A stretch of 64,000 bases of DNA from positions 10,666,001 through 10,730,000 of the forward strand of contig OX485804.1 of the NCBI GenBank assembly GCA_950295325.1, read 5' to 3'. Shown one piece after another: positions 6,067-61,239 of this stretch (its first letter is position 1; each line of letters opens with the position of its first letter). The stretch comes from Polytrichum commune. Taxonomy: Eukaryota; Streptophyta; Polytrichopsida; Polytrichales; Polytrichaceae. The notes under the pieces are model-generated. The model saw nothing but the letters and a program-made list of their open reading frames with translations. It made no database searches and had not been told where the DNA came from. The position numbers and the translations under genes were made by a program.

Positions 6067-6715
6067 TATACATCTCGTATAGTGTAGCATCGCCAGGGCT
6101 ACTACTATAGGACAATCGTAATAACTTCTTATTATTATTATTATTATTATAACTTATTGTTGCCGCGATTAAATTAGGGCGCCCATGTCCCCAATGATGG
6201 CCCGATGTTGCATTCAAGTCTCCTTCCTAATGAAGGCTTGAGTGTTGAATAAGGTGCCATGGACTATCTTGTCGACTCTCACTCAAGGCCTCTCCATGAT
6301 TCCCGAGCTTCCTTGGACTAGTCCCGCCTGCTAACTTTTACAAGCCACCCGCAGTCACGAACTTCCACTTAATTGCCAACCTAGTACATAGAAGAATATG
6401 TCTATTTATTGGGGCTCGAAATCACACTATTTATTGAATGCACCCCTTTATAGGGTGGGAAGTATCGCATATTATGAGCATGTGTATATATATATGTGTC
6501 CTTTGTCCGACCTTCAACCCCCGCAAATAGTGTGCAGCCTGGAGGCGACTCGTTTTAGTTGATTTGCCACCGGGATCGGCTTCAAACGCCCCGAATTAGT
6601 CTAGTTCAAGTAGGTTGACATGGATCGGCCACAAACTTATAAAGGGGCCGAGGTGTTATATTTAGATGCTTACTTATGCGGTATTTGGATCGTGACATCA
6701 TGTTCTAGGTTTCCC
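6067..6715. other. Gene-free stretch with a TTA microsatellite
   Basis: A short (TTA)n run lies at about 6128-6150 and an (AT)n/(TG) patch at about 6483-6497. No gene or transposon terminus was recognised. Confidence 0.4.
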
Positions 6716-7768
6716 CTTCTTTACGGAAACGTTGTGTTGGGCATATGTTTTTTGTTCGGTCAAAATCCTAGTGTTTCGAGTCAACGCGGTTACATGCATG
6801 TTGGGGTGTTTAGGTGTTTTTTTCTTTGTTGATTTGAGGTTTGTTCCGTAGATTCCTCTAGAATGATCGGTAATTTTCCTTAAAGTCTTGAACTTCAACC
6901 ACGCTATTTGTAACTACGTTAAATGTTTTGTTTATTGTTATATGAAATTTTATGTCGTTGTGTGGTAATAACACTTGTTATGAATAAGTTCACAGGTATT
7001 GTCACCCCGACGTATTTTTAGTTCATCCAGATGCCAACTATTGAAACAAGAAATTAGTGTATTCTACATCCTAACATGAATGTAATAAAACAAGTCATGG
7101 ATAAGTAACAAATTAATAACCAATGTCAAGCAATCTGACATAAACTTGAGCATGTTGGCCCTACCTTGCTCAAGAATCCTCTTGGTGTGAGGTGGGGTGT
7201 ACTGCCTACCTTGGTGTAGGTGGGCTGTGGGCTTCCTACCTACCTTCTTCACGGAAACGTTGTGTTGGGCATATGTTTTTTGTTCAGTCAAAACCCTAGT
7301 GTTTCGAGTCAACGCGGTTACATGCATGTTGGGGTGTTTAGGTTTTTTCTTTGTTGATTTGAGGTTTGTTCCGTAGATTCCTCTAGAATGATCGGTAATT
7401 TTCCTTAAAGTCTTGAACTTTTACCACGCTATTTGTAACCACATTAAATGTTTGTTTGTTGTTATATGAAATTTTATGTCATTGTGTGGTAATAACACTT
7501 GTTATGAATAAGTTCACAAGTATCGTCACCCCGACGTATTTTTAGTTCATCCAGATGCCAACTATTGAAACAAGAATTTAGTGTATTCTACATCCTAACA
7601 TGTATGTAATAAAACAAGTCATGGATAATTAACAAATAAATAACCAATGTCAAGCAATCCGACATGAACTTGAGCATGTTGGCCCTTCCCTGCTCAAGAA
7701 TCCTTTTGATGTGAGGTGGGGTGTACTGCCTACCTTGCTGTAGGTGGGCTCTTGGCTTCCTACCTAGC
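6716..7768. repeat. Tandem duplication of a 528-bp unit
   Basis: The sequence from CTTCTT at 6716 to 7243 is repeated almost without change from 7244 to about 7768, a constant offset of 528 bases (for example ACGGAAACGTTGTGTTGGGC at 6723 and 7251). The few differences are single bases and short indels, so the duplication is fairly recent. Each unit carries a fragment of the dispersed GATTCCTCTAGAATGATC repeat, a piece of the TA-site MITE interior and the 3' part of the SINE-like repeat on the minus strand. Confidence 0.85.
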
Positions 7769-8408
7769 TAGCTAGTTTTTTTTTCCTGTCAAGTAGAGAG
7801 AAGATTTCACAACGGGAAACGAATCGCTGACCACTCCATTTGGAAACGGGTACCACTCCACTATTACCCGGTAGTTTAGGGTCATTTCGGACCATGGATA
7901 ATCAAAATTTGGATGTAGATGTTAGAATCACAACATCTACATTTTTAGTGAAGTGTGATTATTATGAAGCCCTTCACATTGAAATGCATGTGAACATCTC
8001 AAACTTGAACATTGGTGGAGTGGTACCCATTTGCAAATGGAGTGGTTGGCAGTTCGTTTCCTGTTGTGAAATCTTCTCTCTACTTGATGGGAGAAAACTA
8101 GCTAGGTAGGTAGGAAGCCAAGAGCCCACGCACCGCAAGGTAGGCAGTAAACCCCATCCTGCACCAAGAGAATTCTTGAGCAGGGTAGGGCCAACATGCT
8201 CAAATTCATGTCGGATCGCTTCACATTGGTTATTTATTTGCTAATTATCCATGACTTGTTTTATTACATACATGTTAGGATGTAGAATACACTAATTTTT
8301 TGTTTCAATAGTTGGCAACTGGATGAACTAAAAATACGTCGAGGTGACAATACATGTGAACTTATTCATAACAAGTGTTATTACCACACAATGACATAAA
8401 ATTTCATA
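7465..8408. repeat. Foldback: two inverted arms of about 400 bp around a 150-bp loop
   Basis: The left arm (7465-7863) reads as the reverse complement of the right arm (about 8013-8408), starting from TATGAAATTTTATGTCATTG at the left and its complement at the far right. The inner part of each arm is a copy of the SINE-like repeat also present at 34344-34551. The outer part resembles the interior of the TA-site MITE at 56273-56659. The loop (7864-8012) is unrelated to either. The pair could extrude as a large hairpin. Confidence 0.85.
8013..8250 (+). mobile_element. SINE-like repeat with tRNA-type internal promoter, right arm of foldback
   Basis: An A-box-like motif TGGTGGAGTGG (8013-8023, fits TRGYNNARNNG) is followed about 39 bases later by the B-box-like GTTCGTTTC (8052-8060, one mismatch to GWTCRANNC). 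A body shared with 34344-34551 then runs to a TTGGTTATTTATTTG tail. The opposite arm carries the A box on the minus strand at 7853-7863. Assignment as a tRNA-derived SINE is inference from the boxes and the simple-repeat tail. Confidence 0.5.
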
Positions 8409-8480
8409 CAAGGTAGGGCTCAAATTCACACCCGATTGCATGATGTTGGTTATTCATTCATTCATTCATTCATTTATGAT
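8409..8480 (+). repeat. SINE-like 3' end with ATTC tail
   Basis: GGTAGGGCTCAAATTCACAC...GATGTTGGTTATTC matches the 3' end of the SINE-like repeat and runs into five copies of ATTC. It is a severely 5'-truncated copy placed immediately after the foldback. Confidence 0.55.
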
Positions 8481-10439: not shown

Positions 10440-11077
10440 CATGTCTTTCTTTCAACTGAACCATCAAGCGAATATTAGCCTCTATCTCAAGGAGGTTGTC
10501 GCACTCTGCCACTCTAAGGAATTAGTGAGTTTGGCACCATCATGATGTTCTTTTAGTTCCATGAGCCTACATTCATCATGACAGTTGTCTAGACCCAACC
10601 TTACTTTCGTGGATGAAAAGTCTAGATGGAATCCTACATGGCAGGTTATGGATAAGGGTGCATGGTCTACCGGAATTTGCGTCAAGCCCACCTCCAAGAG
10701 GTGGGCTTGACGAAAATTCCGGGAGACCATGATTTTTTTTAATATTTTGTCCAACATGACAAATTTCAGGACATATTTAAGGGCAAATTCCATAATAGAT
10801 TCCAATATAGATTCCATGACACAAAAATACCACCAAGTAACGCTCTTGGATTGATAGAGTTTGAGACATATTAAATTAAACCAGATCCTCCCCACTTTTC
10901 AGCCAACAAAATATGCAATCGTCCCGCAACATGGTCCATCCTCACTTCACACTATGCTTGAGGGCCCGTGACTACATAAACCATCTTTCTCAACACCCAT
11001 GGTACAACCTTTGGATGAGAGTCAAGGGTCCTCACCATTACAAGGTCACGGCTCTTGGCTCATGTGTGAAGTGGCCC
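10440..11077. mobile_element. Rearranged PIF/Harbinger-like MITE with strong internal hairpin
   Basis: The right end (GGCTCTTGGCTCATGTGTGA then AGTGGCCC, followed by TAA) is the right terminus of the 500-bp PIF-like family. Internal blocks match 32408-32896. The left end is replaced by a copy of the repeat seen inverted at 2786-2935. The centre holds a long perfect-stem hairpin at 10661-10731. The minus-strand open frame here (10482-10895) is a by-product of the repeat. Confidence 0.55.
10661..10731. repeat. Hairpin with a stem of about 33 bp
   Basis: CATGGTCTACCGGAATTT at the left pairs with AAATTCCGGGAGACCATG at the right, and CGTCAAGCCCACCT pairs with AGGTGGGCTTGACG, leaving a loop of only about four bases. 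In sibling copies (32633-32665, 49165-49205) only one side of this stem exists. The hairpin is therefore a feature of this copy. Confidence 0.85.
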
Positions 11078-19311: not shown

Positions 19312-19462
19312 GCACATAACATTATTCATATTCATAGGAATGTTTTGTGGGACTGACAATATTATGCAAAATATTCCCCACACTCTATCTAAGTGTGGAG
19401 AATATTTTGTAAAATATTATTAGTCCCACATAACGTTGCTATGGATCTAAATAATGTTATGC
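19312..19462. repeat. Long imperfect palindrome, about 150 bp
   Basis: GCACATAACATTATT...GTGGGACTGACAATATT...ATATTCCCCACACT is mirrored across a loop of about seven bases by AGTGTGGAGAATATT...AATATTATTAGTCCCAC...AATGTTATGC. The arms are about 70 bp. It is likely a small hairpin MITE, or a gene-silencing-type hairpin if transcribed. Confidence 0.8.
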
Positions 19463-20221
19463 ACATGTAGTAGTGGCAATAGTAGTAGTACTTATATTTA
19501 CGCATCCCAATCTAACTAGATGGGTGAATGTTTACAACACCTACTAAAGGAGAGAGCGAACCATGGAGGGGAAGGTGATAAGGTTGAATTTTATTGTAAA
19601 ACATTAATATTACTATTAAAAACTAAAGTGATTCCTAAATAGGGGTTAGAGATCTCGAATTGGTCTACATTGTTTATGGTATTTAGTGTCACATACTGTT
19701 TGGAGCTACGCATTGCTATAACGGTTTATTGCTTAGAATTTTTTTCTGTATTATAATTCACATAGCTTTGATAAAATGCGGTGCATTAGAATGGCTTTAT
19801 ATTAGGACACAAGACCAAACAAACTCCAAAACAAAACAATCTTATTAGTTGAGAGTAAAATTTTGGACACAAAGAGTTTAAACTAGTTTCAAAGCACAAG
19901 AGTTTACTCCCTCTTTATTGGTCGAACAAGAAAGTATTGTATTATATGAATGTCGTATTGTCAATAATATGACATTTTGGCCTCAAATCTCACACTATGA
20001 AGGTCCTTTTTTGAAATGACCTATTTCAATGTACATTCTCGTATTGTATACATAGTCAAGATACATAAGTATGAAAGAATATTTATATTGAAGAAATGTG
20101 CTCACAATGCTCCCTCAATGTTCCCCAAGGTTCCCATTAAATGTTTCAAACTACTAATAACACATGAACCTTGAAATTCACATGGATCATGTTACTTATG
20201 CACCATGGATTACCTCTATTA
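19463..20221. other. Gene-free stretch with orphan MITE end
   Basis: An orphan left terminus of the TA-site family (CATTGTTTATGGTATTTAGT then GTCAC) is at about 19667-19735. No matching right end was found nearby. No gene was seen. Confidence 0.45.
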
Positions 20222-20359
20222 GGGTCCAACTGCACCACCTAGTTAAGAGAATTAGCTAGCTTATGAGTTAGTGAGGGTTAGCTAACTAAAATTCTAGCTA
20301 ACTAAAATCATGACCGCACCACCTAGCTAGAAGAATTAGCTAATAAAGTGAGCTAGTGA

Positions 20360-20590
20360 CATCAACTACTATAGAGGGCTCTCTCTTCCAACACGTAATT
20401 AATGATTTCTCCCTTAAATCTTGCCACGTGTCATGCTCAAATTCGCCACAACCCACTTGTATCCCATGTGGAAACTACATTCCGGCACGTGTAAAGCTGA
20501 AATAAGGAGCCCTCGATGTTAACTCGTATGCAAGGCTAACCAAATGCATAGCCGCACATCAATGTTACCACTACCAAAGGTTGACCAATT
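20360..20590 (+). repeat. GCCACGTGTCATGC dispersed repeat
   Basis: The block with GAGGGCTCTC, TTGCCACGTGTCATGCTC, CACTTGTATCCCATGTGGAA and TTCCGGCACGTGTAAA recurs inverted at 21175-21405, in direct orientation at 41740-41890, and inverted and diverged at 54105-54225. Confidence 0.65.
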
Positions 20591-21424
20591 TAGGGTCTAG
20601 TTGCACATCCAGTTAAGGCTCTAGTTTGAGTAAGTAACCACTCAAATTAGTTTTATTGCGCCCGCACTACCCAATTAAGTGAGTTAGCTAACATTTTAGG
20701 TAGCTAACCTATGTGAGAGCTAATCTATCTCATGGCCGCACCACCTAGCTAATTTTATGGTTAGTTTCTTCATAAAAATAGAAGTTAGGTAAGTTTTGAG
20801 ACCTTGCTTTTGTGAGGAAACCTTAACTCATCCATACCCCTAATGCTAAGTAACTTCCAAATGAGTAGTCCAAGTTTTTGTCTTGAATGCCCATCATTCA
20901 TTTCCCCCATCTCTTATTTGTTATGCTATGAACCGGACCACACTATTCCTTACGTCATCCTAAATTAACAAACACTTTAAATGATAAAATATTATTAATA
21001 TAACAATTCCAATGTTCAAATTATGTAACCTACTATTTTTTAGTTATAATTATATTTTTAATTAAAAAAAACACAAATGGTGCGGGCCACATAATTAGAA
21101 TGTATCATAATTAGTGCCATATTCATATATGGGCAAGTTGAGCAAAAGTTTGGTTGGTAAATCTTCATTCCTCTCTTACATTGTACAACCTTTGCTTAGT
21201 GGTAACCGGGATGTGTGGTTGTGTGACCAATTCGCTCGCATATGAGTTACAGTAGAGGGCTCCCTATTTCGACTTTACATGTGCCGGAATGAAGTTTCCA
21301 TGTGGGATACAAGTGGGTCATGGCAAATGTGAGCTAACACATGGCAAGTTTTGAGGGGGGAAATCATTATTTTGTGTTCGAATAGAGAGCCCTATTCGGT
21401 AATTGGTTTTTTTTTGGGTACAAA

Positions 21425-22385
21425 TTGAAAAAATCAATTGCAAGAGGTAACCCAAAATACAACCAACACGGGTGAGCCAGCGCAACCCGAGTGGAAATCA
21501 AGAAATAATGTTCATTTGCAATTTATCAATCCAAGTGACAACTAAGTTACTCCGAGTCATAATAAGGTTTTTGACCCCCCATGTTGAGTCAAATTTGTTA
21601 AGGACGTCTTGGTAGGCCACATTTGGGGCATGTTGCATATCCTTGAAAGTTTGTTTCCACTCAATCTTACCATAATCCTGCAAAGCGTCTCAAATGATTT
21701 GATGTGTTTTCTCAACGGCCATAACAAATTGGTGAAAAACATATCACTTCATTGGCAAGAGATAATCAACAGAAGACCACTTCTCAAAAAGAACCAAATG
21801 CGACTAAACCGTTTAAGTGTATTGCACCTAGGTTGATAAAAAAGGCATTGCATCATAGAAAATGACTTCCACGGGCCGATATTCTTATTATTGGCAAAGA
21901 GTTGCCAAATGATGTTGGCAGTGTATTGCCACATGTGTTGAGTTAGTGGACAGTTGTAAAACTTGTATTTAACAATTTCCACCAACTGGGGACCACAATG
22001 AGAGTAACTCTTGTCAATCTCCATTGAGATTTTACCACACCATTCATAAACCACAACCGCCTTATGGATGACCGACTAGAGCAAAGCCGCCACTTTTTGT
22101 GCCTTAGCTTTATGCTAGATGATATTCCACTTGGGGGAGGTGGAGGGAGGGATTTTATTCTGCCATTTGTGTGGAACTAACTTCTTGAGGGTTGTCTACT
22201 TAGTAATCCACTTCCTCCCCTCTTTGGCTGAGTAAGCACAAAAAGGGGTAACCTTTGGCCATCACCAACGAGCAGGGTCAAAGAAGAGTTGATCATATTT
22301 CCCATAGAACAAGTTGAATTTAGTTTTGTTGCTCCCTCTTGTGAGGCTATCCACCGTAACGTGTGTCATCCAACCCTCGAACAAC
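21425..22385 (-). pseudogene. LINE fragment: zf-RVT-like C-terminal region
   Basis: Reading on the minus strand and allowing frameshifts, one finds a DPARWWWPKVTPFCAYSAKE block, a KWNIIWHKAKAQKVAALLW block, a CPLTQHMWQYTANIIWQLF block, IWFFLRSGLLLII and WGVKNLIMTRSNLVVTW, then a stop and a short 3' tail of TTGCAATTGATTTTTTCAA type. This order fits the zinc-binding region after the reverse transcriptase in plant LINEs. Closely similar blocks occur in the same order at 51498-52586 and 33510-34066. Frameshifts and stops show it is dead. It is 5'-truncated and I could not identify a target-site duplication. Confidence 0.75.
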
Positions 22386-23070
22386 TTCATTGTTAGCTAA
22401 TTCTCTTAGCTAGGTGGTGCAGCTAGACTCTCAAGAGAGGGGTTAAAGTTCACCAATTTAAGAGAGGACTTAAGGTTGACCAACCAAAGTTTTGCTCAAC
22501 TTGCCCAAATTTTGAATATGACACTAATTATGATACATTTTAATCATTTGGTCCAAACCATTTGTGTTTCATTATGATTAAAATGTATTAAAACAATTTA
22601 ATGATTATTATTTAATAATAGGATCATCTAATTTTATACTTTGAAATTTGATATTAAAATAATATATATTTCTATAAAAGCATATGTTAATTTAGGACAA
22701 TGTAAGAAAGAGTGTGGTCTAGCTCGTAGTGGAACGGAGAAGATACGGGGGAAATGAAAAGTTGGCATTCAAGACAAAAACTTGGGGTACTCATTTGTAA
22801 AAGTTAATTAGCATTAGGGGTATGGATGAGTTAAGATTTCTTCACAAAAGCAAGATCCCAAAAATTATCTAACTTTTATTTTTATAACCTTTTGTTATTT
22901 TAACCATAATTTTAGCTAGGTGGCGGTCATGAGATAGATTAGCTCTCACATAGGTCAGCTACCTCATATGTTAGCTAACTCTCTTAACTGGGCAATGTGG
23001 ACACAATATAACTAATTTGAGTGGTTACTTACTCTAACCAAAGCCTTAACCGAGATGTGTGGTTGAACCC

Positions 23071-25062: not shown

Positions 25063-27788
25063 ATAGATCTGGCTTCATTTTAGGCACTTCCAACTCCAAA
25101 TGTAACTTTGAATGTTGTATCAGATAACAAACCACCATGGTGTAGTCTCAGGGGGGGGGGCAATGTGTTAAAAAGTTAAGGATATAGGTGCGAACAACCA
25201 CTATTTTATAGGGGGGTATTACTTTCAATTCTCTTCTTTTTTTTCACATGCTATCATTATGCAAATTTCTACTTTGGGTTAATAGAAAAATGGCTTGCAT
25301 TACTTATAATTCCAAATTACCTATTATTCCATACCCTATAGTACTTTAAAGATGTCCAATGTCATTTTTGATACCCTATATTACTCTGAAGTCCAATTAT
25401 AAAATTTTGCCCCCATGTTTTTAAAATACCCTATCATTTGTTCGCACGTATATTGCTACTCCAACCAATGACTACCCCCCCCCCCCCCGAGGGTGTAGTT
25501 AGCAATTGCAAATCACCAAGAACGTCTTTCCAAGTTTCATAATCTAAGTTGACATGCACAAATCACGGGAGGTCATAGTGCATATATTGATTCTCTCTAA
25601 CTCTCAAAGGATATAAGAAAGAATCCCTTGTTGGGACAACTTTATTCCAAACATGTATTCCAATCTCACCATAAGACATCTCCTTTGGTTCACCACTCTT
25701 AGCTACAACCCTTGCTATATACGACTCAACTTTGGTTTATAATCCAAGCACCACTTTTCCAATCACGATCCGGGTGGTCTTTCAGATTTCAACTCAAATA
25801 GTGTCAATAATCACACATATAATCATTTGATTATGATCAATTTAAGGCACTTGGAACTTGAGGTAAATAATTTGGACATGTTTTCTATGTGTTTAACATC
25901 TTTACATGTTTGTATCACTCCCTCACATACAAACTTGTTTGAATTGGGGGGGGGGGGGTGTATGTCTCTTGAAACTATCGAGTATCTTCAAAATAAAGGT
26001 CATTTTTTATGTTGCGCTTCATAATATTAACATGTCGTATCTTAGTATAAATGCTCGCATACTAAAGGCATTTCTTTAATCCAATGCCTAGGGACATTTT
26101 TGGGCATGATCGATCAACATTCTAGTGTCACCACTGAGTCCAAACAATAGCATGTTGTGATCTTTCGGTTTTTATTCTTTGATTTGAGGTATATACTATA
26201 GATCTTCTAAAACGATTAGTTATTTTCCTAAAGTCTTGGACTTCAACCGGGTTATTTCTCAATCTCAATCGGTTCGTTTGTAACTAGAGTAGAGGCATCT
26301 ATGACCAATCACTTAGGAGATTATGTGCCCGATTTGGAGATGTTTAAGGCGGTGTAAATTTTTTTCCCATCTAGGAAGATTAAAATCAAGAGGATTGCAA
26401 ATTCTTTGGTAATTTTATTCCTTAAATTGAGAATATTATGATTTTTGGAAGCCAAAAGTTGGCCCGAAAATATTACCAATTTCTCAAGTTTGCCATAACA
26501 ACTCATTATAACCACCCATTCCTCCTCACTCTAGCACTCAAAACCAAGACATGCGTCATGGCACATTGGCTCTAGCCCGATCGAAATTTCAATACCCTAT
26601 ACGACTAGTCAATGAACACAATAATCATCCTTTTGACAATGAATAGGATATTCATATGAGCAAAAATCATTAGGAAAGTGGCGATGGCTAAACCATCTCG
26701 TGCTAATAACATGTTTTATACTCTAGGAGAAGTGGGGTAGTAAGAAAAAGTAAACATTCAAGACACAACTAAGATAAATGTACCAACAATATTCCAACAA
26801 AACAATCATACAAACATCTATATTTGAGTGATAGTTCATTAAGCATAGAGAGAGGTGTGTTTAAAAGAGATTGAACTACATACTCAAAGTATACCAACCA
26901 TTCCATATTCAACAGTCAACATGACTGGAAGGACTTAATTGATCACTCGATGAACACGAGAAACTTCACTTTGATATTGAATAAGGATTTTACATGCATT
27001 GGACTTTAAAAAGCACGAGACAAACTGACTATGAACACAATTTGGTTTGGTTTTGAGAATCATTTCGCACTAATCGCGGGTTATATATATCCTAAGAGAA
27101 GTGGATGTAGAGAGAAAAAAGTATCTAAATAACACGCATCCATCCATCCACCTTCAATGAGGGTCGGCTCTCTCTTTTGTGTATCACGAAGCGACCCCAC
27201 CGATGCGTCCAAAGAGATGGCCTACTACGGTCACGGTCGTCAAAATATATTGTGGGAATATTACCCTTTCTTTTGAGGCTAAATAAGCAAAGCTAATTCC
27301 CTTTCCAAGCTCCCTCCACAAGGTGAGGAGCGAGCGATGGCCACCGATGTGGAATGAGAGCTTTTTTAAATGCCAAAACCATAATGATTCAAAAGCCGTA
27401 GTAGGGACACACTTGTCGTGGTTTGGTTGATGGCGGTGGGCCAACGGGACCCAACTTGCATTTGCACTTTATTCCAACGTCCCGGGATTATGACCCCATG
27501 CTCATATCATGTATGTATGCGGCAACCCGACATGAATTCAAAGTTGTCCTAAGTTAGCTAGGGAACTTCTAGTGGGTCGGTGGGGGTTAAATCACGGTGA
27601 ACTTCAAGTTCCTCTCAACACATATATATACCATAGGCATATAGTAGGTGGAGGAAAATCCAATTAATGTGTCAAAAGTTGGTCCAACACTTTACAATTA
27701 ATAACTATAAAGCATTTACACTATTTCCGGGGATTATTTTGAGGGACAAAAACTAGGTTTGTTCACCTATATCCAAACATGTGTAGTA
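25063..27788. other. Gene-free stretch with G/C tracts
   Basis: Runs of G or C of ten or more bases occur at about 25149, 25486 and 25946. A fragment of the CCGGTT/GATTCCTC repeat lies at 26165-26290. No protein frame is convincing. Confidence 0.4.
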
Positions 27789-32896: not shown

Positions 32897-33495
32897 TAAT
32901 AAGCTGCATTTGTTGTTGTCATGACGCTTGGATAATTAAGTTACAATGCTAATCTTAGGTGTGATGTTGGGTGTAAACACTCATAGAGTAGACCTAACAA
33001 ATAGTCAAACACCTAATCCAATCATTATATAGTAACTAACCTCTTTGACCTCAAAATCAATCAACAAAATGAGAGTGCAATGAAAGTGAAGTTGACATTT
33101 TGGCCTTGGCTAAGTTGGACTTCTGTCTCAAAAAAAATGAAAAAATGAAAAAAATGAAAAAAGTGAAGTTGACTTTGAAAGTCCAAAAAGCCCAAACTTC
33201 CCATCCCTAAAACAGGCCCAAGAATACCCTGATGACCCTTCCATTATATACCATCTTAGTTGGCCATTTATTCCATGAACCTTTTTTTTTCCTTTTTTTT
33301 TAGACATAAAGCCAACACCAAGAATGAATCCATCAACTTTTTCTTTTCTTTTTTTAAGAATATTATTTATTTATTTTGAGAGTCATGGAATTATGCCAGA
33401 AACATACTTGAAAAACGATTGTTGAACATTATTTAAAGCTTCTTCATTCACATGAGTCTATACTATTTACAAATCGTACGGGAATAGGCCCCTAT
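32897..33495. other. Gene-free stretch with retroposon-like tail
   Basis: At 33100-33165 the words TTGGC...GTTGGACTTCTGTCTCAA run into an A-rich tail of GAAAAAAT units. The same words and tail occur at 63235-63305, suggesting the 3' end of a dispersed retroposon. No gene was seen. Confidence 0.35.
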
Positions 33496-33509
33496 TCTAA
33501 AAGGGGGGG
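33496..33509. repeat. Target-site duplication, left copy
   Basis: TCTAAAAGGGGGGG here matches TCTAAAAAA followed by nine G at 34067-34084, apart from homopolymer length. The two flank the inverted LINE fragment. Confidence 0.6.
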
Positions 33510-34066
33510 CTACTTTTTCTTTTCTCCACACATATGAAAGCAAACTCAGTTGCAAAATGAAAAGTCCAATCACCTCAAGTGAAACACAACAAAACAAGCG
33601 GACTTAAGAAATAATGCACACTTGGGGCCTAACTTTTCAAGTAACCACTAAATTGTTACAAGTAACAATAAGACCTTTGACACAAATCTTCAGTTGGCCT
33701 TTGGCTCAACAAATGTGATGCTATGCGGTTAAACATCGTTTGGCAACTCTTTGCTAAAAGAGGTAACCTTGGCCCTCGGAAATCTTTTTCAAAGATGCAA
33801 TGCCTCGTTGATCAACTTCTAAGTAATTCGTTAAAATTGTTCTGTCATATTTGGTTCTTCTTGAGGAGTGGTCTTTTGTGGATTATTTGGCGTCAATGAA
33901 ATGATATAGTTTTTAATGCTCTTTAATGGCCAGTGGAGAAAACACACCAAGTTGTGTGGGATTCCTTGCTTTGACTCTAGTAGTCTTGAGAGGCACTGGA
34001 CTTTTGCGGATTTGGAAAAAGCAGCAGTTGTTGCTTATGAGGATGTTCTTAAAATTTTTGACGATA
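33510..34066 (-). pseudogene. LINE insertion with 5' inversion
   Basis: From 33689 down to 33510 the minus strand gives KICVKGLIVTCNNLVVT, a stop, CIIS, a stop and a TTGCAACTGAGTTTGCTTTC tail. This is the LINE 3' end as in the two other minus copies. From 33690 to 34066 the plus strand gives LNIVWQLFAKRGNLGPRKSF, CHIWFFLRSGLLWIIWRQ and AAVVAYEDVLKIFDD, which lies immediately upstream of that segment in the other copies (AYQDVLNKFDSTWGVKNLI). The upstream part is therefore inverted with respect to the 3' part. It is dead: in-frame stops and a frameshift are present. Confidence 0.75.
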
Positions 34067-34084
34067 TCTAAAAAAGGGGGGGGG
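34067..34084. repeat. Target-site duplication, right copy
   Basis: Matches 33496-33509 apart from two extra A and two extra G. Confidence 0.6.
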
Positions 34085-34343
34085 ACTATGACTTGCCAAG
34101 TGTTTGTGGTCGAAGGTTTTGTTGTGACTTGTCCAACTGGTGTCAGGCCCCATGAGACAAATACATGGCTAGTTGTTTGGCTCACATGTTTTTACTTATT
34201 AAATTTCAATATTGTTTCAGTGATAGAACGTCACATGTTTGTTCACCCTTGCATAGTGAACAATAACCAGATTGAAAACTGTTCATTTTGCAAGAGTGGC
34301 CCAAAAAAATGAAAATCGATTCTTTTAAAATTCTCAACACCAA

Positions 34344-34551
34344 GGTCCAAGATGACCCTAAACTACTGGGTGATAGTGAAGACGTTCCCATTTCCGAATG
34401 GAGTGGTTGGCAGTTCGATTCCTGCTGTGAAATCTTCTCTCTACTTGACAAAATAAAAACCAGCTAGGTAGGTAGGATTCTTGAGCATGGTAAGGCCAAC
34501 AGGCTCAAATTCACGTCGGATTGCCCGACGTTGGTTATTTATTTATTTATT
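34344..34551 (+). mobile_element. SINE-like repeat with A and B boxes
   Basis: An A-box-like TAGTGAAGACG (34374-34384, fits TRGYNNARNNG) and a B-box-like GTTCGATTC (34413-34421, exact fit to GWTCRANNC) start 39 bases apart, as in tRNA-derived RNA polymerase III promoters. The body is shared with both arms of 7465-8408. The 3' end is TTGGTTATTTATTTATTTAT, a simple-repeat tail. Length is about 208 bp. It carries no coding capacity and would need LINE machinery to move. Confidence 0.55.
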
Positions 34552-34733
34552 CTCGACACTAAGGGTGCAACACCCTAGTGCCAAACAATGTTATGTTGTT
34601 TTGTTAGACTAGTATAATATGGGAGGTAGCTAGTGGAACACTTGGTTTCAATGCTTGCCAATGCATCGATACGTCTTTTTTGGTAGAATGTTACGATCAA
34701 AAAGTACACGATGCAAAAACTGGCATTTCATAG
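34552..34733. other. Short gene-free spacer
   Basis: Nothing was recognised between the SINE-like repeat and the palindrome. Confidence 0.4.
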
Positions 34734-34866
34734 CATTATTAAGTAGTGTGTGTCCATCCATGTGGGCCCTGAGAATATAACCACTTTGAATATGCACTAG
34801 CTGGCGCATCCCATGGTTATGTTCTCAGGGGGCCCACATGAACGAACGCACACTACTTAATAATGT
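34734..34866. repeat. Palindromic MITE-like hairpin, about 130 bp
   Basis: CATTATTAAGTAGTGTGTGT...CATGTGGGCCCTGAGAA at the left mirrors TTCTCAGGGGGCCCACATG...CACACTACTTAATAATG at the right, with a central loop of about 25 bases. The outer TTA/TAA pairs would fit a three-base target site. Confidence 0.8.
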
Positions 34867-51483: not shown

Positions 51484-51497
51484 TTGAAGTGACAATT
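51484..51497. repeat. Target-site duplication, left copy
   Basis: TTGAAGTGACAATT, identical to 52587-52600. Confidence 0.85.
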
Positions 51498-52586
51498 GTT
51501 TTATTTTTTGGCACAAATTAAAAAGATTCAATTGCAAGAATAAAACCAAGAACCAAGGGGCATCAAGAAATAATGCCCATCCATGGCCTAACCTTCCAAG
51601 AGACCACTATATTATTATGAGTCACAAATAAGACCTTTGACACACCACACTTAATCAAATTCCTCAAAAACATCTCAATAGGCAATGTCTAGGGCTTTTC
51701 CAAGTATTTGAGAATCGGTTTCCACTCAATCCTACCATAGTCTAGTAAAGAGTTCCACACCACTTGGTGTATCTTCTCCACATGCCATTCAAAGGTCGTT
51801 AAAAACCATATCATTCCATTGGTGCCAGATAATCCATGGAAGGCCACCTCTCAAGAAAAACCAAATGTGACTAAACCCTTTAATGTCTTGCAAAGAGGTT
51901 GACCAAAGAGACATTGCATCATTGATGAAATATTTCCAAGGGCCAAGGTTACCTCTTTTGGCAAAGAGTTGCCACATAATGTTAGCATCATAATGCCACA
52001 CTTGTTGAGCCCAAGGGCAGCTGAAGAAACATGTGCTCCGCTGACTCCACATATTGCGCACCGTAATGAAGATAATCTTTGTTAATCTCCACCGAGATTC
52101 TCCTACGCCATTCATTCACCGCCACCGCCGTATGAATTATTGCCCAAAGGAAAACCGCCTTCTTTTGTGCCTTGTGTTAGTGTCAAATGATATTCCATCC
52201 TAGAGAAGTGGATGGAGGATTTTCATTTCATCATTTATCATGGATCGACTTCTTGAGGGCCTCTTGAGTAGCAATCTATTGCCTCCAGAGCTTGGCCAAG
52301 TACGCAAGGAAGGAATAATCTCAAGCCACCACCAATTTGCCGGGTCACAAAAAGTTGGTCCAATATCCAAAAAAAAACAACGTGACTTGAGTATGGGTAT
52401 TGCCTTGTGTAAGTTTGTCCACCATGACTTCAATGTCCATGTTGAGAAAGCCATTGGGGATGTTGCATTCCTTGCATTTGATTTCAACTTTGTGAGAGTA
52501 GAAGTATTGCGAACCGACGGTGAACTTGTAAGAACCCTAATGCCATCATCCCTTAGGTTGTCCCATGAGTAGGTAGGACTGACATT
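51498..52586 (-). pseudogene. 5'-truncated LINE insertion with 14-bp target duplication
   Basis: On the minus strand, with frameshifts, the blocks are CFFLDIGPTFCDPANWWWLE, RNMWSQRSTCFFSCPWAQQV, WHYDANIMWQLFAKRGNLGP, HIWFFLRGGLPWIIWHQWND, MVFNDL and a SKVLFVTHNNIVVSWKVRPW block, then a stop and a tail ending TTGTGCCAAAAAATAAAAC at 51498. This is the region downstream of reverse transcriptase (zf-RVT-like) and the 3' end of a plant LINE. The same blocks appear in the same order at 21425-22385. The 14-base direct repeats on both sides show target-primed insertion. Stops and frameshifts mark it as dead. Confidence 0.8.
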
Positions 52587-52600
52587 TTGAAGTGACAATT
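52587..52600. repeat. Target-site duplication, right copy
   Basis: TTGAAGTGACAATT, identical to 51484-51497. A GA microsatellite starts 20 bases further on. Confidence 0.85.
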
Positions 52601-56659: not shown

Positions 56660-57612
56660 TAGTTATCACGGGCTTCAATGGTTGCCACTCCAAAACCATT
56701 AGGAGTGAATGGGCAATGCAAGTAGCTCCAATGCTTTAAGTAACATGGCAATGTTTCTATGGTATTTCTACAAGGTGAAGGAATATGAAGGGCCGTAAAT
56801 GGCTATTGGGATAACTACATAAAAGCATACTTTAAACTCCAAATCACCTATCTATGTGGTTTACAATTGCTAATCGGATTAGATGATTCAACGTTTAATC
56901 CAACATGTGTAATTGTAAGCGAAGTTGGAAGTACTCAAAACATGGCCACATAACCTTACCTACATTTTTAAACAAACAAAAAGTTTGTGTAGATTTATTC
57001 TCAACGTTGGAAATAACTTGGCTTCATCTCTCTAACAATGAATGCCACTAAGCGCGTATCGCAACATATGTTGTTGGGTCCCCTATTAAAACTTGATTTG
57101 TTAGCAACGGGATCCCAAGCTTCCATGGTAAAAACATGCAATGAAAAGAAAAAAAGAAAAAAAAGAAATATCCACGTCATGACAAAGAGACGTATCCCCC
57201 CCCCCCCTCTCAACTACTTGATTGAAGTGCAAACTTGCAATCCCATTAGTGCAGAGGAGAGGTCCCCTTGAACAAAGTTTCTATGTGTGAGGATTATTGC
57301 TTACCATTTTTCAAGCATCTAAATCTTGTGGAGTCTAGCCTTGTGGAAGTTATTTTCCCTTATTAGATACAATTATTCACATGTCGGTTCAAATTCACTT
57401 GCAAGTGGCGCTCCTTCCCCATGGTTCATCTGGTTGAACTAACCATTGGGACCCATTATTCCTCCCTCCTTTCCTCCTCGTTCATTTCTCTCTTCTCCCT
57501 CATTCCACCCACTTAACAAACCATAGTGATTGAATAAGTGTAATGTTTCTTCCAATGCTGGAAACAAATGGCTTCATCCTCCAATAGTAATAGACAAACA
57601 TAGAAATGGATT
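56660..57612. other. Gene-free stretch
   Basis: A run of C lies at about 57197-57207. No gene was supported. Confidence 0.4.
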
Positions 57613-59523: not shown

Positions 59524-59772
59524 TGACGAAAGTTATCTGATATGCAAGGAAGCGAGTGGTGAGCTCGAGAGCGACGAGAGGCGCGAGGTTTGAAGAATTT
59601 TTGCGTGAAGTTGAGGAGCCGGTGTTGGAGTGGAGTGGAGTGGAGTGGAGTGTCGATCGGGTGATATTGTTATTATTATTATTATTATTATTGTGTGTGT
59701 GTGTGTGTTGGAAGCGACTAGAGGGAGGAAACAGAAACAGAGGTAACAGAGAGTAGCAGGACGGGGTCGAAT

Positions 59773-61239
59773 ATGACTGGGAAGAGGACACGGGCATTGA
59801 CACGCACAGCGAGCGTGTCACAGCTAAGCTCGGGAGCGTTCTCGCAGGAGTTTTCTCCATTGCTGGAGAATCCAAAGGAGAAGCTCAAGCCAACCACCAT
59901 TGGTAACAGGGAACAAGCTTTCTGTGCACCCCGCGTGGTGATCGGCTTCGAACCCAAACCTGCTACCTGTGACCGTGCGTTATGCACGAAATCGGCTCCT
60001 TCGTCACCGTGCTATTACCAGGAGAAGGCAGCCTCGCCTCGCAGCGGGCTCAACAGCTTGTTGTCACGGCAGCAGCGGGGAATGGGGGCTGGGAGTGTGA
60101 ACGGGAGCAAGAAGGCAAGCGAAGGCGTGGGGCTTGGTATTGTATTGCATGGAACTGGAACTACTGCCACTACAGCACCGACGCCACATCCTGATGATGT
60201 TGTGTCTGCGGTTGAGGATGTCAAAATCAATATATTGGAAAGAGAGAATTATCATCACCATCATCATCTTCAGCAGGGCGGTGACCACACTATTGTTCCT
60301 GTTCGTGAGGACATCATTACCACTAGCCCCCAAAGATCGAGGTTTACCGTCAGTCAGCAAACTCCTCCGCCTCGCAGACATAGCCATCCGATCCCTATCT
60401 TGGCTGCAGGCTCCAGCTATGTGCAACCCAGTGGTGATGACGTTGTTGAAGTTTTACAACCAGTGCAAGGATCGCAGCTTCCTCAACAGCCAGTTGTAGT
60501 ACGTCCTCCGATTGGTTGGATGGAGAGGGAGGATCTCATGGTAGACAGGCATGACACATTCTTACTTGCACCTTCACCAGTGAGGAGCGGCCACATGGGT
60601 GGAGGAGAAAATCATCGTAACAACAGCGCTGCTTTGCAAACTGCACTTACTGCGGCCGTGCACTTCCTCGATGAATGCTCTTTCTGTAAGCGTCACCTTG
60701 CGGAAGGAAAGGACATCTTCATGTACAGGTATCGGCTCCCATCCCATCCTCATGCTTTCTTAAGATGATACGATGAAGGGACCAAAGAGTCTCTTAAGAT
60801 CCGTTTTAAAGACATCATGCTGTGGTGGTGGCACGTAGGAAATGGATCCGTACATGAGTATAGCCTTGTTGCATCGATTTTGTTGCCTTCATGTTCTGTT
60901 TTGCATAATTTCTTTCAGCAAGTGGTTGTTAGGTGAATTTGGTTTTTGCGTCTGAAGGTTTCAGTTGCGGAAATTGCTGCTGTGGATGGATGGGAACTTG
61001 GGTTTACGAAGTGTATGGAATTTGAAAAGAGTTCGGTATGTTTGACTGATGGGATGTACTGGTACTTGGTTTGGCTGTTCAGGGGAGATAAAGCTTTCTG
61101 CAGCCCGGAGTGCAGGTCTAAGCAAATCACGCTGGATGAGCGTAGCAGGAACTGTTCTTCTGCGGCGCTAAAGACGGGGGGAGGTGCACCATCTCGCCGT
61201 TCTCGGGTCTCTGCAGCATCATCTGCCGCAGCTGCATAA
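59773..61239 (+). CDS. FCS-like zinc finger (FLZ, DUF581) protein, two exons
   Basis: The coding sequence joins 59773-60728 and 61083-61239 and gives 370 residues. The FLZ domain spans about residues 298-338: FLDECSFCKRHLAEGKDIFM, then YRGDKAFCSPECRSKQITLDE split by the intron at Arg319. Zinc ligands are Cys302, Cys305, Cys325 and Cys329. The N-terminal part is long and looks disordered, with a basic start (GKRTRALTRTAS), a GVGLGIVL segment at 118-125 of a type seen in other FLZ proteins, a His5 run at 161-165 and Pro/Gln-rich stretches. The C-terminus is Ser/Ala-rich. Known FLZ proteins bind the catalytic subunits of SnRK1 kinase and act as adaptors in energy and stress signalling; a like role is inferred. 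The first in-frame ATG is used. A donor AG|GTATCG and an acceptor TTCAG|GG fit. No neighbouring gene lies in the window. Confidence 0.9.
60729..61082 (+). other. Intron inside the FLZ domain, 354 nt, phase 2
   Basis: It begins GTATCGGCTC and ends GGTTTGGCTGTTCAG. Splicing restores FMYRGDKAFC, the FLZ signature. If retained, the frame reads YRLPSHPHAFLR and stops at 60766-60768, leaving a 331-residue protein with only the first cysteine pair. Confidence 0.88.

Follow-up and report, generated by a model that had tools for sequence, protein, structure and literature searches.

A degraded LINE copy with an inverted front half in Polytrichum commune, probably formed by twin priming

The locus and its LINE family

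The DNA analysed here, referred to as the window, is a stretch of 64,000 nucleotides from Polytrichum commune (contig OX485804.1, positions 10,666,001 to 10,730,000). Three stretches of one LINE family occur in it. Two of them are colinear and are used as references, while the third is the locus described in this work, a short, old and degraded LINE copy in which the front half is flipped relative to the back half. The features of the locus and of the reference copies are presented in Table 1. Approximately the last kilobase of the LINE is seen in the window, the copies being 5'-truncated.

Table 1. Features of the inverted LINE locus and of the two colinear copies in the window.
Feature	Position	Strand	Remarks
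Left copy of the direct repeat, presumed target-site duplication	33496-33509	.	TCTAAAA-G7; direct repeat with 34067-34084
LINE 3' arm (ORF end, 3' UTR, poor A/G-rich tail)	33510-33684	-	blastn and pairwise alignment
Inner (inversion) junction	33681-33690	.	arms meet at 33684/33687
Inverted LINE 5' arm	33687-34066	+	element 52027 down to ~51657-51650 (coordinates of copy 51498-52586)
Right copy of the direct repeat, presumed target-site duplication	34067-34084	.	TCTAAAAAA-G9
LINE-like stretch outside the right repeat	34098-34132	+	alignment to 51652-51620 and to the locus's own minus arm
Colinear reference copy, 5'-truncated	51498-52586	-	own 14-bp duplication; weak zf-RVT match
Second colinear reference copy	21407-22385	-	weak zf-RVT match; target duplication not found

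The duplication that flanks copy 51498-52586 is perfect (51484-51497 and 52587-52600), and its score is reached by 11 of 5,000 random pairs. For copy 21407-22385, the search for a target duplication gave nothing above chance, with 4,299 of 5,000 random pairs being as good. One frame in each colinear copy resembles the Pfam family zf-RVT, and both matches are weak (E=0.00039 with 21.5 bits and E=0.012 with 16.7 bits), lying below the curated cut-off of 27.5. Two frames of the plus arm of the locus matched no Pfam family at E<=1. An Rfam scan of the window returned nothing at the gathering thresholds, and a scan of viral contigs with one LINE peptide gave 37 pattern matches, with no relative among them.

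The surroundings of copy 21407-22385 are themselves repetitive. It is flanked by inverted repeats of about 600 bp (20604-21183 and 22454-23059, 79.5% identical), and further inverted pairs are found nearby at 20375-20534 / 21235-21393 and at 20213-20279 / 22372-22440. This LINE copy may lie inside a foldback-type element.

Other features of the window

Several other repeats accompany the LINE family. The region 6715-8411 contains a 528-bp tandem duplication (6715-7242 and 7243-7766, 94.7%), after which comes a partial copy in inverted orientation, where 8015-8411 corresponds to 7462-7861 at 91%. Parts of 7624-7897 and 8023-8239 recur in a short repeat at 34340-34554, and the stretch 56458-56597 matches other parts of the tandem region around 7624-8239; this short repeat family is possibly a MITE. 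Palindromic stretches, 78-90% identical to their own reverse complement, are present at 19315-19461, 10661-10731 and 34734-34865.

Among nine open frames scanned, the only match was that of frame 59722-60765 to zf-FLZ, a plant-specific family (E=7.2e-10), in line with a plant host. It covers 26 of the 54 profile positions and lies near the end of the frame; because the match is partial at this place, the gene may continue in a further exon.

Arms and inner junction

The original prediction placed the 3' end of a LINE on the minus strand (33689-33510) and the segment that should precede it on the plus strand (33690-34066). Both segments were confirmed, with slightly adjusted limits, the former running from 33684 to about 33510 and the latter from 33687 to about 34057-34066. 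When the region 33201-34400 was compared with the window by blastn, the plus arm aligned in the opposite orientation with both reference copies (33687-33993 with 52027-51722, 77.67%; 33732-33950 with 21916-21699, 74.8%). The minus arm aligned with copy 51498-52586 in the same orientation (33592-33684 with 51551-51644, 77.66%), and pairwise local alignment can follow it out to 33553 or 33515. Depending on the scoring, the plus arm is 76-79% identical to copy 51498-52586 and 70-73% identical to copy 21407-22385, and the corresponding values for the minus arm are 75-83% and 68-69%. Both arms are nearer to copy 51498-52586, from which they are about equally diverged.

The facing ends of the two arms were located by pairwise local alignment under three scorings. 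In two of them, the plus arm ends at 34057 (corresponding to 51657) or 34062 (corresponding to 21588), and the minus arm begins at 33684 (corresponding to 51644) or 33681 (corresponding to 21575). The ends thus located lie 12 nt apart in both reference copies, and read by eye the distance may be 5-9 nt. Under the third scoring, which tolerates gaps, the plus arm runs past this break to 34108 or 34110, the query itself ending at 34110. The adjacency of the two segments in the colinear copies, which the original prediction had also put forward, is borne out, with at most about 12 nt between them, and the wide separation in the element that would have spoken against the prediction is not seen. 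Of the ends that adjoin in the element, one lies at the outer edge of the locus and the other at its inner junction, with the direct repeat outside, so that the arrangement claimed for this place is indeed present.

At the inner junction, the letters CACA (33681-33684) are found by eye on both sides in copy 51498-52586; in copy 21407-22385 one side reads TACA and the other is without CACA. This is a possible 4-nt microhomology. The tail of the minus arm (33510-33525) reads CTACTTTTTCTTTTCT on the plus strand; it is A/G-rich and is not poly(A).

The flanking direct repeat

Aligned with a single gap, of 2 nt in the A run, the two copies of the repeat agree in 14 letters, and the G run is longer in the right copy. 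Among 20,000 random pairs drawn from the window, 17 reached their score, as did 15 of 5,000 when wider edge zones were allowed. The edge zones of three other structures gave no direct repeat (1,002, 2,776 and 4,394 of 5,000). The repeat, which the original prediction took for a duplication, goes beyond chance, but only moderately so, because poly-G runs are over-abundant in the window. G/C runs of at least 7 occur 16 times, against about 2.8 expected under a first-order model, and those of at least 9 occur 12 times, against about 0.17. When the 12 bases upstream were compared among 119 pairs of runs, the top score was shared by three pairs, the flanking repeat included. The repeat is genuine support of moderate weight, less than its length suggests. 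Examples of the poly-G/poly-C excess elsewhere are the runs at 1080-1094, 1614-1626, 25475-25488, 25946-25958 and 57196-57207.

The repeat was also compared with the element at the place where second priming would have occurred. It agrees with copy 21407-22385 in 10 of 14 positions, which is the best value, reached by three, among 966 positions, and which 49 of 20,000 letter shuffles matched; the agreement with the closer copy 51498-52586 is 5 of 14. The likeness to copy 21407-22385 could reflect annealing for the second priming. Judging from the sequence, the presumed first nick would be G-rich, not T-rich.

LINE-like sequence beyond the right repeat

Thirteen nucleotides past the right repeat, a LINE-like sequence appears on the plus strand (34098-34132). 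Its part 34098-34129 is identical to 51652-51620 of copy 51498-52586 in 27 of 34 columns, and its part 34105-34132 and the first bases of the minus arm of the locus itself agree in 23 of 28 columns. The resemblance resumes at the element base that adjoins the outer edge of the plus arm. Scores as high as those of 34085-34140 were given by 0-2 of 1,500 random window stretches under two scorings, and by 7-82 under two more permissive ones; against copy 21407-22385 the same stretch had no match (216-656 of 1,500). In a scan of both strands of the window with 51653-51590, it was the only place, apart from the known copies, that scored as well, and a scan with the first 60 bases of the locus's own arm found one further place, at 22975-23003. 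Taken alone, this sequence says that the plus arm continues rightward with a 31-nt insert (34067-34097), and the arm may not end at the right repeat. Either a colinear plus-strand copy carrying this insert or a LINE fragment already present in the target would fit.

The first of these options leads to the alternative of two LINE copies standing head to head, one on the plus strand, from 33687 to about 34317 with the 31-nt insert, and one on the minus strand (33510-33684). Such a pair may have arisen from independent insertions or, as proposed in sections of PMC2837659, from one dual priming event involving two RNAs. It would account for the continuation of the element at 34098-34132, and some signal further to the right agrees with it. 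Taken whole and summed over three references, the right flank 34085-34320 was equalled by 2-20 of 1,500. A tile in 34230-34330 matches the locus's own 3' arm (0 of 400), positions 34278-34293 are complementary to 33550-33565 in 15 of 16 letters, and there is an A-rich end near 34317.

Across the rest of the right flank, the evidence for a LINE is mixed. The part 34140-34320 alone was equalled by 8-835 of 1,500, depending on the reference, or by 5-103 when the references were summed, and no tile in 34133-34240 reached the reporting score. Extension of the plus-arm alignment into this flank gains little compared with random flanks: four of the eight scoring-reference pairs are equalled by 9-91 of 600, a fifth by 46 of 600, and the remaining three show no gain. 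Two nhmmer profiles of the 3' end matched nothing in 34067-34400. The 3'-end motif CATTATTTCTTGAT, exact in both colinear copies and present with two mismatches in the locus's own arm, has no counterpart in 34085-34340 when up to four mismatches are tolerated. Moreover, the outer ends of a head-to-head pair have no fitting direct repeat (2,776 of 5,000), and its two 5' ends would need to meet within about 2 nt. We regard this alternative as unlikely.

Twin priming as the preferred explanation

The best explanation of the locus is that it is a 5'-truncated and 5'-inverted LINE insertion produced by twin priming, and we consider this probable. The strength given here is a judgement and not a computed posterior. 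What is said here on nicking, on annealing within the RNA, on the joining of the cDNAs and on the sequence of these steps is taken from the established twin-priming model, as described in sections of PMC2837659 and PMC2912911, and would apply to this locus as follows. The element endonuclease would nick what is here the plus strand, and from this first nick, at the left repeat, the 3' end of the RNA would be reverse-transcribed for about 175 nt (33510-33684). A second nick, about 14 nt away, would expose a 3' end able to anneal inside the RNA. A second cDNA primed there would run upstream for about 380 nt (33687-34066), and the two cDNAs would be joined at 33684-33687. Filling in of the staggered nicks would give rise to the TCTAAAA-polyG repeat. 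The resulting duplication of about 14 bp has the same length as that of the sister copy 51498-52586.

The geometry of the locus, with two arms in the observed order and orientation, adjoining in the element and enclosed by the repeat, is better accounted for by twin priming than by the rivals tested. This part of the original prediction stands, but the LINE-like stretch 34098-34132 outside the repeat, the poor tail and the nick that is not T-rich speak against the reading, and the tests of the right flank weaken the claim. A poly(A) tail and a T-rich endonuclease site are typical of mammalian L1 and are not required by the twin-priming model. Microhomology at the priming site or at the inversion junction is likewise frequent in twin priming and not obligatory.

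Neither of the main readings does without a coincidence, of an order near one in a thousand. For twin priming, 34098-34132 has to be chance or an older fragment in the target. The reading with a colinear plus-strand copy makes the flanking repeat a chance product and, in addition, has to bring two 5' ends together within about 2 nt. Twin priming is preferred because of this last point, together with the missing 3' motif. If it is correct, the empty site would be a single TCTAAAA-polyG tract, followed directly by ACTATGACTTGCC, with both arms absent.

A variant of twin priming makes use of the older fragment. A LINE would have inserted beside an opposite-orientation fragment of its own family (34098-34132, perhaps extending to about 34317), with homology guiding the second priming. 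The antisense strand of the old copy would hold the incoming RNA, and the second nick would prime beside the paired stretch. We consider this variant quite improbable. In favour of twin priming itself, the whole-flank test of the left flank (33250-33495) gave no signal of an older LINE (104-291 of 300 shuffles). Two overlapping tiles in 33390-33509 stood out against one reference (1 and 2 of 400); they are not colinear and were taken as chance. When the joined flanks were compared with the window by blastn, only the flanks themselves and short matches of 14-34 bases were returned.

The same arrangement could also come from a colinear insertion on the minus strand that underwent a partial inversion afterwards. 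Recombination could have taken place, for example, between 33658-33684 and 34105-34132, which are inverted repeats of each other (23 of 28 columns) and bracket the inverted arm. A later inversion, however, offers no reason for one of its breaks to fall at the flanking direct repeat and the element edge, and it leaves the right-hand repeat to be explained, which makes this possibility very improbable. An assembly error at the homopolymer tracts at both edges (G7 and G9), a kind of sequence that is error-prone in some sequencing methods, is extremely unlikely. The arms differ by about 22% even from the copy closest to them in the window and hence cannot be a duplicate of it put in the wrong place, and the joins coincide with element-adjacent positions.

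Comparison with known systems

Twin priming and the 5'-inverted L1 insertions ascribed to it were reportedly described by Ostertag and Kazazian in 2001. A survey of 5'-inverted L1 elements in human and chimpanzee counted, in the part of PMC2912911 covered here, 639 such cases among 2,068 L1 insertions. The locus in P. commune shares with them the inverted 5' arm, the 3' arm in element orientation, facing ends that are adjacent in the element and a duplication of about 14 bp. It differs in its plant host, the degraded state of the copy, the poor tail, the G-rich rather than T-rich nick and the LINE-like sequence past the right repeat.

The dual-priming or poly(T)-headed L1 loci, as presented in sections of PMC2837659, resemble this locus in having two pieces of one LINE family placed head to head, a likeness that would hold if the plus arm reaches the A-rich end near 34317. 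Here, in contrast to those loci, the outer ends are without a duplication, and a single short A-rich stretch is found, on the right side only. With plant LINEs that have a zf-RVT C-terminus, the family may share this C-terminus, to which its matches are weak, and it resembles them in an A-rich tail and in the 14-bp duplication of the sister copy.

Other studies concern the conditions under which inversions arise. According to sections of PMC4245944, 5' inversions depend on both the host and the LINE species, and in the cell assays presented there they came, with one exception, from human L1 in human cells. Inverted L1 inserts in the same sections carry mostly duplications of 10-20 bp, a range that includes the duplication of about 14 bp seen here. 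At the inner junction, twin-primed inserts with deletions as well as with duplications are reported in parts of PMC12350158. As for plants, a literature search found no twin-primed or 5'-inverted LINE among the titles listed, in a collection to which most subscription journals do not belong, and plant cases may exist; inverted plant LINEs are not discussed in the covered parts of the review PMC3747384.

The mechanism is already known, best from mammals, and the locus most likely adds one plant example to it. A single degraded locus is an example and not a measure. If the reading is true, a plant insertion flanked by some 14 bp of duplicated target would mean that 5' inversion is not a mammalian peculiarity, and it can be predicted that plant LINE families with duplications of such lengths carry a measurable share of inverted copies.
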